Positions 43,752-58,692 of a stretch of 64,000 nucleotides of DNA are shown in pieces. Every line of letters starts with the position of its first letter. Position 1 is the stretch's first letter. Position numbers and translations under genes: made by a program. The stretch comes from a virus. Location: IMG/VR virus record IMGVR_UViG_3300034060_001466, positions 124,001-188,000 of that record; one strand, 5' to 3'. The notes beneath the pieces are model-generated. The model saw only the letters and a list, made by a program, of their open reading frames with translations, was not told the DNA's origin and ran no database searches.

Positions 43752-43766
43752 GTTGATTAAGTTAAG

Positions 43767-43839
43767 TACCCCAGGAGGGATTCGAACCCCCATCTCACGG
43801 TCCGTAGCCGTGTGTTCTGATCCATTGAACTACCGGGGC
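43767..43839 (-). tRNA. tRNA-Arg (anticodon ACG)
   Basis: A complete cloverleaf on the minus strand: acceptor GCCCCGG/CTGGGGT, anticodon arm CACGG-CTACGGA-CCGTG, T loop TTCGAAT. CCA is not encoded (discriminator A followed by CTT). It reads CGU after A34 to I editing. Last member of the array, separated from the others by a 76-codon gene. Confidence 0.9.
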
Positions 43840-43848
43840 AGGTACTAA

Positions 43849-44079
43849 TTAGTTTCGGTTATGTGCAGCTTTCCAGCGCTCTTGCAGACCTTCCCAGTAG
43901 CCACTTTCGTTTTGAAAACGTTGAACCACTTGAACATCTTCGGGAAAACCTAGTGCAAGCTTAGCCTGATTACGAATATCAGCCTTCATAATTGTCTGAA
44001 TCAAGGCTGTGTGAAACGATCCAGCTGTTCCAATCTTATAGAACATGAATTCTCTTTCTGCGTTTGTTATTTCTTCCAT
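43849..44079 (-). CDS. Small conserved phage hypothetical protein
   Basis: A 76-residue protein (FYKIGTAGSFHTALIQTI, then AKLALGFPEDVQVV). The pattern 'G.F..AL...I.KAD..N..KL..GFP..V' recurs in many phages with no known function. It lies inside the tRNA array and has its own type A motif 5 nt upstream, so it can be read without the array promoter. Confidence 0.6.
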   Translation of the reverse strand: MEEITNAEREFMFYKIGTAGSFHTALIQTIMKADIRNQAKLALGFPEDVQVVQRFQNESGYWEGLQERWKAAHNRN

Positions 44080-44096: not shown

Positions 44097-44103
44097 TAAT
44101 TTG

Positions 44104-44177
44104 TAATCCAGGCAGGACTCGAACCTGCGACCTACCGCTTAGAAGGCGGTTGCTCTATTCCACTGAGCTACTGGACT
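44104..44177 (-). tRNA. tRNA-Arg (anticodon TCT)
   Basis: Acceptor AGTCCAG/CTGGATT, anticodon arm ACCGC-CTTCTAA-GCGGT, T arm GCAGG-TTCGAGT-CCTGC. CCA is not encoded. Reads AGA/AGG. It lies 1 nt from tRNA-Ser(GCT). Confidence 0.92.
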
Positions 44178-44178
44178 A

Positions 44179-44266
44179 TGGCGGAGAGTGGAGGTCTCGA
44201 TCCCCATTCCCTTTCGGGAACCGCTCGCTTAGCAGGCGGCGACAACACCTTGTTGCTTCACTCTCC
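44179..44266 (-). tRNA. tRNA-Ser (anticodon GCT), CCA encoded
   Basis: Type II tRNA with acceptor GGAGAGT/ACTCTCC, anticodon loop CTGCTAA, a long variable arm GGTTCCC-GAAA-GGGAA and T loop near ATCGAGA. Discriminator G is followed by encoded CCA. The anticodon stem has only three clean pairs near the loop. Reads AGU/AGC. Confidence 0.85.
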
Positions 44267-44271
44267 ATTAG

Positions 44272-44352
44272 TACTCCCGGTGGGACTCGAACCCACAAGC
44301 ATTGCGCACTCGATCTTAAGCCGAGCGTGTTTACCAGTTTCACCACGGGAGC
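44272..44352 (-). tRNA. tRNA-Leu (anticodon TAA)
   Basis: Acceptor GCTCCCG/CGGGAGT, anticodon arm CTCGG-CTTAAGA-TCGAG, T arm GTGGG-TTCGAGT-CCCAC. CCA is not encoded (ACTA). Reads UUA/UUG. Confidence 0.92.
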
Positions 44353-44359
44353 ATTTTTG

Positions 44360-44435
44360 TACCTCTGGTGGGATTCGAACCCACAAAATCTCTTGATCCT
44401 AAGTCAAGCGGCTTTACCAGTTTACCCACAGAGGC
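44360..44435 (-). tRNA. tRNA-Leu (anticodon TAG)
   Basis: Acceptor GCCTCTG/CAGAGGT, anticodon arm CTTGA-CTTAGGA-TCAAG, T arm GTGGG-TTCGAAT-CCCAC. CCA is not encoded. Reads CUN codons. The variable arm is short for a Leu tRNA. A second Leu(TAG) gene lies at 50577. Confidence 0.92.
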
Positions 44436-44531: not shown

Positions 44532-44615
44532 CGGAAGAGTGAGGTATCGATCCCCATACCCGAAGGTACCACTAGTTTTCAAGACTAGGTCCAGCGCCAG
44601 CTGAATTACTCTTCC
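44532..44615 (-). tRNA. tRNA-Ser (anticodon TGA)
   Basis: Type II tRNA: acceptor GGAAGAG/CTCTTCC, anticodon arm CTAGT-CTTGAAA-ACTAG, long variable arm GGTACC-TTCG-GGTA. CCA is not encoded (GCTC). Reads UCN codons. Confidence 0.92.
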
Positions 44616-44623
44616 AGTTTTTG

Positions 44624-44693
44624 AGGTCAATGTTGGAATCGAACCAACTCCTCAGATTTTGCAGACCTGACGGCCTCCACGACCAAACTGACC
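44624..44693 (-). tRNA. tRNA-Cys (anticodon GCA)
   Basis: Acceptor GGTCAGT/ATTGACC, anticodon arm CAGGT-CTGCAAA-ATCTG, T arm GTTGG-TTCGATT-CCAAC, discriminator T as expected for Cys. CCA is not encoded. It is the promoter-proximal tRNA; its first base directly follows the U run of the attenuator terminator. Confidence 0.92.
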
Positions 44694-44730
44694 AAAAACA
44701 AAAAAGGCTTAAACGTTAGTCTAAGCCTTT
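44694..44730 (-). terminator. Terminator in front of the tRNA array (attenuator)
   Basis: Minus-strand stem AAAGGCTTA/TAAGCCTTT (9 bp, 10-nt loop) followed by TTTTTTG and more T. It lies between the 23-codon leader ORF and tRNA-Cys. Its 5' arm (44719-44727, GGCTTAGAC) is complementary over 9 bp to GTCTAGGCC at 44760-44768 in the leader. Confidence 0.85.
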
Positions 44731-44755
44731 TCAGTAGAAGTTTTCTTATCTTACA

Positions 44756-44827
44756 TCACGGCCTAGACACATCGAGACTTAATCTCAACGAACGTAAACA
44801 AAGTGAATGTAAGGATAATGTTTTCAT
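44756..44827 (-). CDS. 23-residue leader peptide made of Leu/Ser/Arg/His/Cys codons
   Basis: A short ORF, ATG at 44827, TGA ending at 44756. Residues 4-18 read LSLHSLCLRSLRLSL. All fifteen codons belong to the amino acids of the eight downstream tRNAs. Every tRNA has a cognate: TTA/TTG for Leu-UAA, CTT/CTC for Leu-UAG, TCA/TCC/TCG for Ser-UGA, AGT for Ser-GCU, CGT for Arg-ACG, AGA for Arg-UCU, CAT for His, TGT for Cys. The ATG is 5 nt from the promoter motif, the same spacing as for real genes at 44079 and 50096. It is too short to be expected as an enzyme; a regulatory peptide is the natural reading. Confidence 0.65.
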   Translation of the reverse strand: MKTLSLHSLCLRSLRLSLDVSRP

Positions 44828-44832
44828 GTTAA

Positions 44833-44844
44833 TAATATACTACA
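44833..44844 (-). promoter_or_regulatory. Type A promoter motif for the tRNA array
   Basis: TGTAGTATATTA on the minus strand, 5 nt before the leader ATG. No other motif lies between here and tRNA-Arg(TCT), so the array depends on it. Confidence 0.55.
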
Positions 44845-44864
44845 ATATTTCTAATTGGTTTTAT

Positions 44865-50303: not shown

Positions 50304-50424
50304 TAGTCAGGACAGGATTCGAACCTGCATGGTCACATCTCTTACCTTTGTTTTCCCCGCTAAGGGAGTGGTGAACGAAGCGAGTTCCGCACCACATAGC
50401 GTCTACCAATTCCGCCACCTGACT
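50304..50424 (-). tRNA. Oversized tRNA-Leu-like gene with insertion
   Basis: The ends form a tRNA: acceptor AGTCAGG/CCTGACT with discriminator A, a Leu-type D arm (GCGGAATTGGTAGACGC) and T arm GCAGG-TTCGAAT-CCTGT. The total is 121 nt instead of about 85. Between D and T arms lies a segment of about 75 nt with a hairpin GTGGT..GAAC-TCGCTTC-GTTC-ACCAC and a second CCCTTAGCGGGG. Neither gives a standard anticodon arm; TAG in the second loop is one possibility. It may hold an intron or be a degenerate or specialised tRNA-like RNA. CCA is not encoded. Confidence 0.6.
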
Positions 50425-50576: not shown

Positions 50577-50657
50577 TGGTACCCTCTGAGAGACTCGAAC
50601 TCTCACCCTAAGACTAGATCCTAAGTCTAGCGCGTCTACCAATTCCGCCAAGAGGGC
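50577..50657 (-). tRNA. tRNA-Leu (anticodon TAG), CCA encoded
   Basis: Acceptor GCCCTCT/AGAGGGT, anticodon arm CTAGA-CTTAGGA-TCTAG, variable arm, T arm GAGAG-TTCGAGT-CTCTC. Discriminator A is followed by encoded CCA. A second Leu(TAG) besides the one at 44360; a type A motif lies 31 nt upstream. The 152 bases between it and the next tRNA-like gene hold no ORF. Confidence 0.93.
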
Positions 50658-51801: not shown

Positions 51802-53004
51802 TTAATGTGAGTCTCCAATATCGTGCTTTTCTCCGTAAATCAAATAGTCTGGATTAATTACCTTTGCTACTCGATTACGCTCACCGCTTATGTGCTTAAT
51901 AACAATGCCTTCATGCGGCACCTTAGTTCCTTTGATCATATTACCAAAGACGAACTGGTCTTGTGTCTCTTGTGACCACGGTCCTGTGTATAGGACTCCA
52001 ACGTGAGGTAACTCTAGCGCTTCTTTGAAAAGGAATTCAGTGTAAATAGTGGACTCGTATTTGCCGTTTACTGTGGCATCGAATCCAACGAATTCAATAT
52101 CAGTCAGACCGTACTCGTAATTCTTTTGAATACCTGCACCGTAAATTTCTCCGTAAATTACAATACCAGCTCCAAGTTCACCAATCCTATTTTTAGTTTT
52201 TGCTAAGGTAAGCAACCTGTTCTTGATATCGTACTTCTCGGCAATTGTTCTCCAGACATCAGTTGAATAGAACCCTTGAGAATCAGAACCCTTCTCGACA
52301 TTATGAGATCCATAAACGTACTCGTACTCAAAGAGCTCTCCGGCGAATCCAAAGAATTTTTTAATCCTATCCATGAAGGACAAGCGATTCTTCTTAACTA
52401 TACCGTATCGTGCATTCGTACCGTGGATCTTACGCGTGATTTGCACAATATCCTCTTCAGTAAACATTCCACTAACATTTTTCAAGTTAGGAAACTTGTA
52501 GTAGACATGAAAGTTTGGATTGTCTTGATAACGAACCTTTTTACCTGAAGCAAGTTGGACCTGTCTAACTGGCGGTTCGTACTTGAAAATTCCAAGCATC
52601 TCACTAACGTCAACTCCTTCTTCAATAACGAGTGCATCGTCATAAGGGCCCAACTGTAATTGATCGCCCCAAGGCTGTTTACTAACTCCGATCTTCATTT
52701 CTTCTGAACCTTCAAGCACATTAAGCGGAATGATTAGACACTCACTGTAAACTCCTCTCAACTTAACTGTTCTAACTCGATTGCCCTTACGCAGGTAACC
52801 GGTTACTCCCAATTTTTCGGATAACTCTTCCGGAATAACTGCATCAGTTGTTGCAATGATAACAAATTCGTCCGCCTTGTGTAGTCCTTTTTTAGTAATA
52901 CAATTCCATCCACCGATGATCGCTAACTCAATATTGTCAGCTCCTTCGATTGCCTTGATTTCTGTTACTTTTCCAATGTAACATACGCTGTTTTGATTTT
53001 CCAT
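51802..53004 (-). CDS. RNA ligase, Rnl5/DraRnl-like
   Basis: A 400-residue ligase. The N-terminal OB-like domain (KVTEIKAIEGADNIELAIIG, then RIRTVKLRG-like NRVRTVKLRGVYSECL) is typical of the Deinococcus RNA ligase family. The adenylation lysine is in VQITRKIHGTNARYG (KxxG near 195). Later motifs are VIYGEIYGAGIQKNY and HEGIVIKHIS (motif IV), with KVINPDYL (motif V). These enzymes seal nicks with a 3'-OH and 5'-phosphate in RNA duplexes. It follows the HD gene and precedes cREC by 15 nt. Confidence 0.82.
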   Translation of the reverse strand: MENQNSVCYIGKVTEIKAIEGADNIELAIIGGWNCITKKGLHKADEFVIIATTDAVIPEELSEKLGVTGYLRKGNRVRTVKLRGVYSECLIIPLNVLEGSEEMKIGVSKQPWGDQLQLGPYDDALVIEEGVDVSEMLGIFKYEPPVRQVQLASGKKVRYQDNPNFHVYYKFPNLKNVSGMFTEEDIVQITRKIHGTNARYGIVKKNRLSFMDRIKKFFGFAGELFEYEYVYGSHNVEKGSDSQGFYSTDVWRTIAEKYDIKNRLLTLAKTKNRIGELGAGIVIYGEIYGAGIQKNYEYGLTDIEFVGFDATVNGKYESTIYTEFLFKEALELPHVGVLYTGPWSQETQDQFVFGNMIKGTKVPHEGIVIKHISGERNRVAKVINPDYLIYGEKHDIGDSH

Positions 53005-57762: not shown

Positions 57763-58692
57763 CTAAAATAAGTTAAATTGTTTTACGAAATCTGCGCTAA
57801 CTGTGTAGTCAGAGTACTCGTCAGCTTTAATATCCTGTACTGAATTTGTACAGTAAACTTTTTCGAAGTATGCAGAAAGATCAAATAATCCTGAACTGAA
57901 AATTCCATGGGTCGCTATCAAGTATATTTTCGAATCTTGAGTTCTCTCCTTGATTGCTTTTGCTAATTCAATTGAAGTTCCAGCACTATCGCAAATATCG
58001 TCCACGATAACGAATTTCTTGCCGTACTCATGCACTAATGGTTTTAAGGAAATATCGGTGTGAGTGATTTTACTGGTTTTTGGATCTCTGTGCTTTACCG
58101 CAGTCACCACCTCATTTAAGTCAAACCAGTCAGCGACTTTGTAAATTTTCCTTAGAGCACCTGCGTCTGGAGAAACAAGAACAATATTCTCTCTTGCCTG
58201 ATTCGTGTTATCAATATCAGTAAGCGCGTACTTAACGAGTAAGTAATTAGATACTTTTTGGAAATTATTGAGACAGGCTTCCAATACATCAGAGTGAGGA
58301 TCCAGAACCTGCACAGATTCAAATTTCTGAGAATTAATGATTGGGCAAATAACGGTCTTTAGGTAATTTGAAGAACCTTCTGAGAATTTACGGTCACTAC
58401 GTGCTCCCAAGAAATAGGGAACATACAGGGAAACTGTCGCGACTCCACATTCGCGAAGAGCCTGATTTGCACAGATAATTAACTCAAGATCCTTGAAGTT
58501 ATTTAGTCTAGATTTTATTACGACATCAGCTTCGTGTAGGTAACTTAAGTTTCCACGCATATCGCCAGTTAGAGTTAATGACTGTTGACCGTCAGCAAAC
58601 TTTGAAACTTTGAAATCAACGAATGCACTTCTTTCAAAGTGGTCTCGTCCTTCGTTTTCCGGATTTGCTAGATTAAGAGTTAGTAGTCTCAT
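57763..58692 (-). CDS. prs: Ribose-phosphate pyrophosphokinase-like (Prs or ADPR-PP synthetase)
   Basis: A 309-residue protein of the PRPP synthetase fold: SRLNNFKDLELIICANQALR, VSLYVPYFLGARSDR, VQVLDPHSDVLEAC and the PRPP-binding KKFVIVDDICDSAGTSIEL. It makes PRPP from ribose-5-phosphate and ATP. Homologues in phage NAD+-reconstitution systems instead make ADPR-pyrophosphate. The partner nicotinamide transferase is not in this window, so the choice is open. It overlaps the upstream gene by 20 bp. Confidence 0.78.
   Translation of the reverse strand: MRLLTLNLANPENEGRDHFERSAFVDFKVSKFADGQQSLTLTGDMRGNLSYLHEADVVIKSRLNNFKDLELIICANQALRECGVATVSLYVPYFLGARSDRKFSEGSSNYLKTVICPIINSQKFESVQVLDPHSDVLEACLNNFQKVSNYLLVKYALTDIDNTNQARENIVLVSPDAGALRKIYKVADWFDLNEVVTAVKHRDPKTSKITHTDISLKPLVHEYGKKFVIVDDICDSAGTSIELAKAIKERTQDSKIYLIATHGIFSSGLFDLSAYFEKVYCTNSVQDIKADEYSDYTVSADFVKQFNLF

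Follow-up and report, generated by a model that had tools for sequence, protein, structure and literature searches.

The stretch analyzed here (the window, 64,000 nucleotides (nt), positions 124001-188000 of the 270-kb virus genome G000, contig C1; IMG/VR record IMGVR_UViG_3300034060_001466) carries on its minus strand an array of eight transfer RNA (tRNA) genes, array A. Upstream of the array, a 23-codon open reading frame (ORF), the leader, is placed between a promoter-like box and the tRNA genes and is followed by an intrinsic terminator adjoining the first tRNA gene; this element is examined below as a putative transcription attenuator. The features, in window coordinates, are as follows.

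44834..44860, minus strand: promoter-like element (AACC at 44860-44857, 17-nt spacer, TATATT at 44839-44834), 6 nt 5′ of the ATG
44756..44827, minus strand: leader ORF MKTLSLHSLCLRSLRLSLDVSRP, 23 codons, no Shine-Dalgarno sequence seen by inspection
44774..44818, minus strand: sensor codons 4-18, Leu/Ser/Arg/His/Cys only, covering 8/8 decoding boxes of the array
44807..44813, minus strand: protector arm 1, CTTACAT, helix extended by CAC (44805-44803)
44760..44768, minus strand: antiterminator strand GTCTAGGCC at the end of the ORF
44750..44756, minus strand: protector arm 2, ATGTAAG, preceded by GTG (44759-44757); present in the minimum free energy (MFE) structure
44719..44727, minus strand: 5′ arm common to terminator and antiterminator, GGCTTAGAC, from pattern scan and pairing
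44694..44732, minus strand: intrinsic terminator (14-bp stem, 4-nt loop, T-run), adjoining tRNA-Cys
44623..44693, minus strand: tRNA-Cys(gca), by ARAGORN and Rfam
44533..44615, minus strand: tRNA-Ser(tga), by the tRNA-Sec model (47.9 bits, cut-off 47); Ser(tga) at the same place in the related loci L005 and L007
44439..44515, minus strand: tRNA-His(gtg), by ARAGORN and Rfam
44359..44435, minus strand: tRNA-Leu(tag), by ARAGORN and Rfam
44271..44352, minus strand: tRNA-Leu(taa), by ARAGORN and Rfam
44181..44266, minus strand: tRNA-Ser(gct), uncalled by ARAGORN or Rfam here, aligned with the ARAGORN-called Ser(gct) of L005 and L007, cloverleaf-like fold
44103..44177, minus strand: tRNA-Arg(tct), by ARAGORN and Rfam
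43849..44079, minus strand: ORF of 76 amino acids within array A, phrog_15317, unknown function
43766..43839, minus strand: tRNA-Arg(acg), the final tRNA of array A, by ARAGORN and Rfam

Codons 4-18 of the leader (44818-44774; TTA TCC TTA CAT TCA CTT TGT TTA CGT TCG TTG AGA TTA AGT CTC) are restricted to Leu, Ser, His, Cys and Arg, and a cognate codon is present among them for all eight decoding boxes of array A, six of whose eight tRNAs were identified by ARAGORN. These five amino acids make up a share of 0.223 of the phage's own amino-acid composition, and a 15-codon run of them was obtained 0 times in 1,000,000 22-codon ORFs simulated with that composition. The antiterminator strand (44768-44760) pairs with 44727-44719 at 9/9 positions, one of them G-U. 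The terminator stem-loop (44732-44701) was detected by pattern scan, and its T-run ends at 44694, next to the tRNA-Cys start at 44693, so that a separate array A promoter between them is hardly possible. The MFE fold of the leader region (z -5.8 versus shuffles) includes both the terminator and a protector helix joining the start and the end of the ORF. A sigma-70 consensus promoter scan of the window gave nothing at leader A, and the promoter-like box is accepted because it is conserved in relatives, being found upstream of the leader in L005, L007, L010 and L034 and, as AACC-N17-TATAAT, in L054. Since no Shine-Dalgarno sequence was seen, the leader messenger RNA (mRNA) is expected from its sequence to be leaderless, probably.

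An initial annotation made from the letters of the window had already proposed attenuation of the array by this leader. Its 23-codon ORF, abutting terminator and tRNA array were identified again at the positions listed above; the restriction of codons 4-18 to five amino acids follows from the printed codons, the 9-bp pairing was reproduced, and the chance of about 1e-6 that it had assigned to the codon run proves conservative given zero runs in the simulations. Its claim of a cognate codon for each tRNA holds for 8/8 boxes, with the two Ser tRNAs resting on the tRNA-Sec hit and on alignment, respectively. The promoter motif fared less uniformly: the box is conserved in relatives, but is absent from the sigma-70 consensus scan.

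A second array of the same genome, array B, lies just past the window edge (G000 188562-191519, minus strand) and is larger, with 18 tRNAs (Phe, Lys, Ile, Met, Trp, Gln, Asp, Glu, Ala, Thr, Gly, Val, Pro, Asn and Tyr). It is preceded by a GGTATAAT box, an ORF of 43 codons with GTG as its start codon (VQITTNISKNTQNWNQYPAGTVNVIAMETIKDFGVLRGSSGIS) and a terminator abutting tRNA-Phe, and the segment CGAGGTTC of the ORF is complementary to the terminator arm GAACCTCG. Cognate codons account for 33/35 sensor codons of leader B, and 15/15 boxes of array B are covered. Leader A holds Leu/Ser/Arg/His/Cys and leader B the other fifteen amino acids; the two alphabets are therefore complementary, and jointly contain all 20.

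Relatives of the window phage were collected as 16 loci through a neighbouring protein, and L034 and L054 were added by pattern scans. Among the 16, a Cys-first array with a leader is present in L001-L007 and L010 (L001-L004 are identical at the neighbouring protein, and L006 ends after two tRNAs), and neither is present at that place in L008, L009 and L011-L016. The leaders of L005 (MKTLSLHSLCLRSLRLSLDKSKP), L007 (MKTLSLHSLCLRSSRLSLDKSKP), L054 (MKTLSLHSLRLCSSRLSLDKSRP), L034 (MKTLSLHRLSLCTRRSRSERLRP) and L010 (MKTLSLHRLSLCTHRSRSEGLKS) use a near-identical amino-acid alphabet with the codons reordered. The ratio of non-synonymous to synonymous differences (pN/pS) is 0.14-0.34 among the window, L005, L007 and L054 leaders; for the window leader it is 0.14-0.33 versus L005, L007 and L054, and 0.84-0.87 versus L034 and L010. 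In family A (six sequences), 96.3% of antiterminator cells are paired, with two compensatory pairs, as compared with at most 55.6% in slid registers, and the covariation score was reached in 1/500 shuffles. The outer pair of the protector helix is C-G, U-A or A-U depending on the relative, i.e., one pair with three standard types, and the protector covariation score was reached in 14/500 shuffles. B leaders are also present in L071, L073, L087, L089, L090 and L095/L096/L105, and their antiterminator pairing is CGAGGTTT/AAACCTCG in L095 versus CGAGGTTC/GAACCTCG elsewhere. The portal protein of the window phage is 33-42% identical to those of the twelve best-listed records, each from an uncultured huge phage or a Lak phage.

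The element also occurs in cultured phages. Cellulophaga phage phi17:2 (KT962247.1, phi17:2_18; L331) carries three attenuators in tandem, as follows.

phi17:2 leader 1 (phi1): MKIQRLHLQELEQPIISGGTGV, before Pro, Glu, Gln, His, Leu, Leu and Arg(acg)
phi17:2 leader 2 (phi2): VQLTKTGITVIDKTKGARAYLGDTVIG, within the annotated ALO80480.1, before Ala, Lys, Ile, Gly, Met, Asp, Thr, Val, Arg(tct) and Met
phi17:2 leader 3 (phi3): MKTNYCTYNNSNWSFSYDTGSVCTLGSDGLIG, before Tyr, Ser(tga, sub-threshold), Ser(gct), Asn, Trp, Phe and a degenerate tRNA

The Arg codon of each phi17:2 leader matches the isoacceptor downstream, with CGT in leader 1 (Arg(acg)) and AGA in leader 2 (Arg(tct)). The degenerate tRNA (L331:6090-6163, plus strand; annotated tRNA-OTHER/pseudo) scores 40.1 bits, its loop reads GCA, and 4/5 of its anticodon-stem pairs are non-standard; because the anticodon stem is broken, it may be a true pseudogene, and the Cys codon of leader 3 may refer to it. 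At L331:5421-5506 (plus strand), the coding sequence ALO80481.1 overlies a Ser(tga)-like tRNA that matches the tRNA-Sec model at 29.3 bits, below the cut-off; an attenuator was sought before the ALO80481.1 stretch and none was found. In Stenotrophomonas phage Moby (MN095772.1, L328), a mid-array leader MNNMYSQNQFCKWSVEDAGHRSVFESC with an 11-bp antiterminator is present, and 16 phage records, duplicates included, cover at least 80% of this stretch with an identity of 98.6-100%. For the first sub-array of Moby, an attenuator was sought and a TTGACA/TAACAT promoter was found by eye, with no terminator. A weak candidate in Vibrio phage D479 (L327:4467-4523, plus strand) was left uncounted: an 18-codon ORF MFAHSLQKFYIYETNPAS with a Shine-Dalgarno-like AAAGGA and few repeated residues, whose 8-bp antiterminator pairing CTTCTATA/TATAGAAG lies 3′ of the stop. 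The T4 array, examined in the screen of annotated phages, lacks the element.

More distant metagenomic lineages were reached by a scan for T-runs adjoining tRNA genes, which is blind to leaders and gave L151, L112, L195, L198 and L222, and, for the T family, through patterns taken from one of these loci. The T family has arrays of up to 25 tRNAs and leaders holding all 20 amino acids (e.g., L296, leader MKTLTLHTNCSQPTLRNEWAGIRMFSTLSNPANLNLGKVDYISTKQLEDTDVG with a 10-bp antiterminator). All 20 are present in 13/13 aligned T leaders, and this still holds when counting is limited to the columns that precede the LED/LEE stretch, which lies close to the start of the antiterminator; column-shuffled leaders gave a mean of 7.7 and a maximum of 12/13 such pangrams in 5,000 trials, and a Cys, Arg or Ala missing at one position turns up at another. 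The 13 leaders fall into few related groups, so that independent events number fewer than 13 and independence is overstated; L317 (peptide the same as in L278), L326 (split at a locus boundary) and the shorter L151, L198 and L222 were left out of them. The L151 leader holds 19/20 amino acids. The L198 array as called has no Val, Tyr, Phe or Lys at the usual place, and its leader has no V, Y or F; it also has no E, although a Glu tRNA is present. The T antiterminator shows the compensated variants GTTAGAGG/CCTCTAAC, GTTAAGGG/CCCTTAAC, GTTAGGG/CCCTAAC and GTCAGGG/CCCTGAC; in seven close T sequences it is invariant, hence uninformative on covariation. The pN/pS among four T leaders is 0.15-0.58. 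In a portal comparison, 3/6 T records match the window portal at 22-27% identity and the other three give no match.

L195 carries three attenuators, in which the Arg codons again suit the isoacceptor: CGC for Arg(tcg), AGG AGA AGA for Arg(tct). Its third leader has two AGA codons not called for by its array, and its third attenuator begins about 10 nt past the preceding tRNA and therefore would be fed from upstream. No attenuator was seen in the L195 gaps before Leu, Ala and Lys.

Other RNA genes lie near two T-type arrays. GOLLD RNA (Rfam RF02032) was found at L296:5924-6337 (minus strand, 307 bits) and L151:4565-4977 (minus strand, 293 bits), about 200-400 nt upstream of the leader in both T loci scanned; GOLLD is known to occur near phage tRNA islands, with a function yet to be assigned (PMC12286853). 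A transfer-messenger RNA gene with a tag peptide (L151:5818-6180, minus strand) adjoins the L151 array and is a further translation-rescue gene in the cluster.

The correspondence between leaders and arrays was evaluated with nine partial leader/array pairs, which come from four genomes; because of near-complete coverage or non-independence, the set excludes the T family, L112, L198, L222, L034/L010 and other homologues. The phi3 and L195_2 ORFs among the nine were found by searching array gaps once the first leaders had been recognized. Among 362,880 permutations, no other assignment equals or exceeds the true one in cognate fraction, in coverage or in the Jaccard index, and 79/83 boxes are covered. 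Under stricter tRNA lists, 76/80 (ARAGORN or Rfam) and 74/78 (ARAGORN alone) boxes are covered, and the true pairing again has no equal on any of the three measures. The lists include tRNAs read by eye, namely phi17:2 Ser(tga) at 29.3 bits and L195 Tyr at 18.4 bits (both below cut-off) and L195 Ser(gct) with no hit; the result stays unique best without these and without the phi17:2 Cys. Cognate codons are 143/171 before the antiterminator versus 30/65 after its start (p 2e-8), where 143 includes the doubtful phi17:2 Cys and is 142 without it. In a second set, obtained by a second T-run scan blind to leader sequence, 55/57 boxes are covered and the true pairing ranks best 1-2 of 5,040; seven of ten reported sites were used, with L434 (one tRNA), L380 (three tRNAs) and L396 (score 6.5) omitted, and among the loci L453 and L413 end soon after and the L454 array is cut by the 900-nt gap rule. 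In L449, 22/22 sensor codons are cognate. A chance match of leader and array was considered and rejected on the strength of the permutation tests and the simulated ORFs.

The frequency of the element was estimated by scoring terminators for an ORF-linked antiterminator, skipping tRNAs within 150 nt of the locus start and duplicate 100-nt keys. A score of at least 12 was reached at 24/70 tRNA-abutting terminators versus 3/372 others, many of the 70 having been fetched via leader patterns; a fairer subset is formed by the first T-run scan plus the annotated phages, in which a score of 10 was reached at 9/43 terminators versus 12/372 others. Among arrays of at least eight tRNAs, the element was found in 5/11 and 4/27 in the two T-run sets, with L222 below threshold. 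L202 scored, but its ORF and spacing are unconvincing and it is probably false. Of 16 annotated-phage regions screened, 13 had arrays of at least eight called tRNAs, and 2/13 score. The attenuator is thus far from universal among phage tRNA arrays.

The effect of a ribosome on folding was modelled for 15 leaders, with 11 nt covered downstream of the A-site codon. In 15/15, weakly in L195_2, a stall at the sensor codons frees the antiterminator and a ribosome near the end covers it. In leader A, the antiterminator is free while any of codons 3-16 occupies the A site and is already covered once codon 17 or 18 does, so that codons 3-16 are the effective sensor; the initial proposal that a stalled ribosome frees the antiterminator and one at the stop masks it is reproduced in the model, except that codons 17-18 fall outside the effective sensor. 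When no ribosome is present, the antiterminator is disfavoured in the nascent RNA of the window leader, L005, phi1, L195_2 and L198 (probability (P) 0.02-0.40), and L010 (0.55) and L195_1 (0.56) are intermediate. A protector helix is present in array A, whereas B, Moby, phi2, phi3, L195_3 and three of four T leaders have a weak one or none. Many leaders begin few bases past a -10-like box with no Shine-Dalgarno sequence seen, the box before the phi17:2 and L195 leaders being a TAnnTTTG motif; the 5′ region is longer in B, Moby, phi2 and L195_2.

The anatomy of the element, its recurrence, the match of leader codons to tRNAs and the conserved helix pairing are read directly from these loci. Taken together, they make it highly probable that the element is a ribosome-mediated transcription attenuator that senses aminoacyl-tRNA shortage and would make the phage tRNA array self-supplying. 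That the leader is translated, that ribosomes stall on it and that polymerase then reads through is inferred, as is the trigger. RNA polymerase would start at the promoter, and the first ribosome would engage the leader at the 5′ end of the RNA or close to it. With all cognate aminoacyl-tRNAs plentiful, the ribosome at the end of the leader would cover the antiterminator, the terminator would fold and the tRNA genes would be off; with any cognate tRNA scarce, the ribosome would stall in the sensor codons, the antiterminator would capture the 5′ arm of the terminator, and transcription would read through. The tRNAs so made would end the shortage, giving an OR gate with negative feedback in which a missing tRNA opens its own sub-array. 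This mechanism would require coupled transcription and translation. The most likely trigger is host tRNA loss in infection, via destruction of the host by the phage or a host anticodon nuclease, and induction by an anticodon nuclease, only one of the possible triggers, is no better a fit than the loss of host tRNAs that follows destruction of the host genome. We also think it likely that phages of several distant lineages use pangrammatic or partitioned leaders as sensors of the whole tRNA pool, in which a tRNA lost or cut in infection, a host anticodon nuclease being one possible cause, would be read box by box and answered by a matching, self-limiting sub-array. Comparison of leader codons with tRNA content in relatives, suggested in the initial annotation as a check, favours attenuation, and its reading of an attenuator guarding the array is strengthened by the array B leader, the permutations, the CGT/AGA choice of phi17:2 and the compensatory changes in the helices.

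Several observations weigh against this reading. Codon content and array content disagree in places: the L222 leader retains Val and Lys codons with no Val or Lys tRNA called in the array, the Moby leader covers 15/16 downstream boxes with the Leu codon missing, and L195_2 has no Glu codon and a Gly codon only late. L195_2 is also the weakest case in pairing, with 5/7 pairs in the tested register and P at most 0.57. In the arrays A of G004 and G005, a Ser tRNA is uncalled and there is no room for it between the called genes, and the leaders retain Ser codons. L074 (G003:C1:151000-157500) has a B-type array promoter and terminator but lacks the leader ORF, and may have lost its sensor naturally. 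In the fairer subset of terminators, a score of at least 12 is reached at 2/43. Both compensatory pairs of the family A antiterminator separate L010/L034 from the rest and hence may represent one event; two both-sided antiterminator pairs were reached in 186/500 shuffles, and one both-sided protector pair in 340/500. The pN/pS is 0.66-0.89 in comparisons with the reordered L034/L010 leaders, where the +1 frame is lower (0.18-0.37); it is 0.68-0.89 between these two and the window group, and 0.36-0.94 for B leaders. In the folding model, the antiterminator is the favoured structure (0.81-1.00) of the ribosome-free RNA in B, Moby, phi2, phi3, L195_3 and three of the four T leaders modelled, so that silence would need brisk translation, and in Moby (0.95) and L151 (0.97) the antiterminator wins even in the full RNA.

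This folding result bears on an explanation in which the RNA switch is the same and the signal is general translation failure or timing, such as ribosome scarcity or an initiation block: since several ribosome-free RNAs already favour the antiterminator, an untranslated leader would also read through. Such a signal leaves the codon-to-tRNA match and the retention of all 20 amino acids unexplained, and we regard it as very unlikely. Alternatively, the leader could encode a small functional peptide (e.g., an anti-defence peptide), the terminator ending its mRNA and the tRNAs arising from leaky read-through. The conservation of A and B leaders as peptides in close relatives is in keeping with this; composition, however, tracks the downstream tRNA set across distant phages, residues have changed places between leaders (window MKTLSLHSLCLRSLRLSLDVSRP, L010 MKTLSLHRLSLCTHRSRSEGLKS), relatives retain the pairing of the ORF end with the terminator, and the choice of CGT versus AGA is not predicted by peptide function, which makes the peptide explanation very unlikely. 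A third explanation takes A- and B-type leaders as remnants of decayed coding genes that match the arrays by chance, and in its favour the leader B stretch NWNQYPAGT resembles virion protein N-termini. Against it, no paralogue of leader B was found in its own genome at E<=1, tblastn searches with leaders A, B and T (low-complexity filter on) matched none of 50,697 phage records at E<=10, and the permutation statistics of the nine-pair and second sets speak against a chance match; we regard it as extremely unlikely. A plain small protein gene, a T-box and a decayed virion gene were considered as the identity of the leader and rejected.

If the attenuator reading is correct, it has consequences beyond array A. 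What tRNA genes do for phages is a matter disputed for decades; a regulatory input would tell when the arrays are needed. A leader that reads the codon boxes of its own array implies a phage that monitors tRNA shortage and repairs it on demand, which would tie tRNA arrays to host tRNA loss and tRNA-cutting immunity and would explain how a cargo of at least 20 tRNAs could remain silent until wanted. For other arrays, the leader would name the tRNAs that the phage expects to lose, and such leaders would be natural sensors of the tRNA pool. Because coupled transcription and translation are needed, jumbo phages with these leaders should not hide transcription of the array inside a phage nucleus. 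The cultured phages phi17:2 and Moby make the system testable at once.

Further genes were noted in the window. An RNA ligase (PF09414, phrog_968; 51802-53004, minus strand) and a protein with the poly(A) polymerase/tRNA nucleotidyltransferase head domain (PF01743; 53578-54315, minus strand) lie in the 7-9 kb range from array A, and a role in tRNA repair or CCA addition is possible. A lone tRNA-Leu(tag) (50577-50657, minus strand) follows a TATAAT box, neither a leader nor a terminator being seen there, and beside it a weak 121-nt match to the tRNA model (34.5 bits, about 50304-50424, minus strand) could be an interrupted tRNA. A ribose-phosphate pyrophosphokinase-like protein (PF00156, PF14572) is encoded at 57763-58692 (minus strand).

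With respect to earlier work, Yang et al. 2021 is cited in the literature on phage tRNA arrays as replacements or versus anticodon nucleases. Phage tRNAs are seen there as replacing host tRNAs lost to genome destruction or nucleases (PMC10264068, PMC12482277, PMC13015707, PMC11025619), and the need addressed there, replacing tRNAs lost in infection, is the same as that proposed here. The terms 'attenuat', 'leader'/'leader peptide' and 'terminator' have 0 occurrences in the available text of PMC13015707, PMC10264068 and PMC12482277. Among the matches listed for literature on attenuation or leader peptides with phages or tRNA, phage tRNA biology and GOLLD, as far as titles and abstract openings show and with subscription journals and most preprints lying outside, no description of such an element was present.

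T-box riboswitches bind uncharged tRNA directly, without a translated ORF, and control termination. The phage element resembles them in that termination would respond to the state of tRNA and differs in using a translated ORF, and no T-box hit was obtained in Rfam scans at the gathering threshold of the window and five further loci. The same scans gave only tRNA-type hits in the window and tRNA, GOLLD and tmRNA in the five further loci, with no leader family; Rfam holds the His, Leu, Thr and Trp leaders as families of amino-acid operon leaders.

The closest known systems are the leaders of amino-acid operons such as trp, his, leu and ilv. Ribosome-mediated attenuators are established for such operons (PMC1183508). 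The phage elements share with them a leader ORF rich in cognate codons, an intrinsic terminator and a mutually exclusive antiterminator formed from the ORF end and the terminator 5′ arm, together with a protector helix, here in array A. They differ in that amino-acid operon attenuators precede biosynthetic genes and respond to one to three amino acids, whereas the phage elements precede tRNA genes and cover 5 to 20, with codon boxes matched to isoacceptors, a phage carrier and often a leaderless mRNA. To our knowledge, they would be the largest multivalent attenuators. The proposed mechanism is that of known ribosome-mediated attenuation, and what is new is the tRNA-gene target, the number of amino acids, the isoacceptor match, the division into several regulons and the phage carrier.

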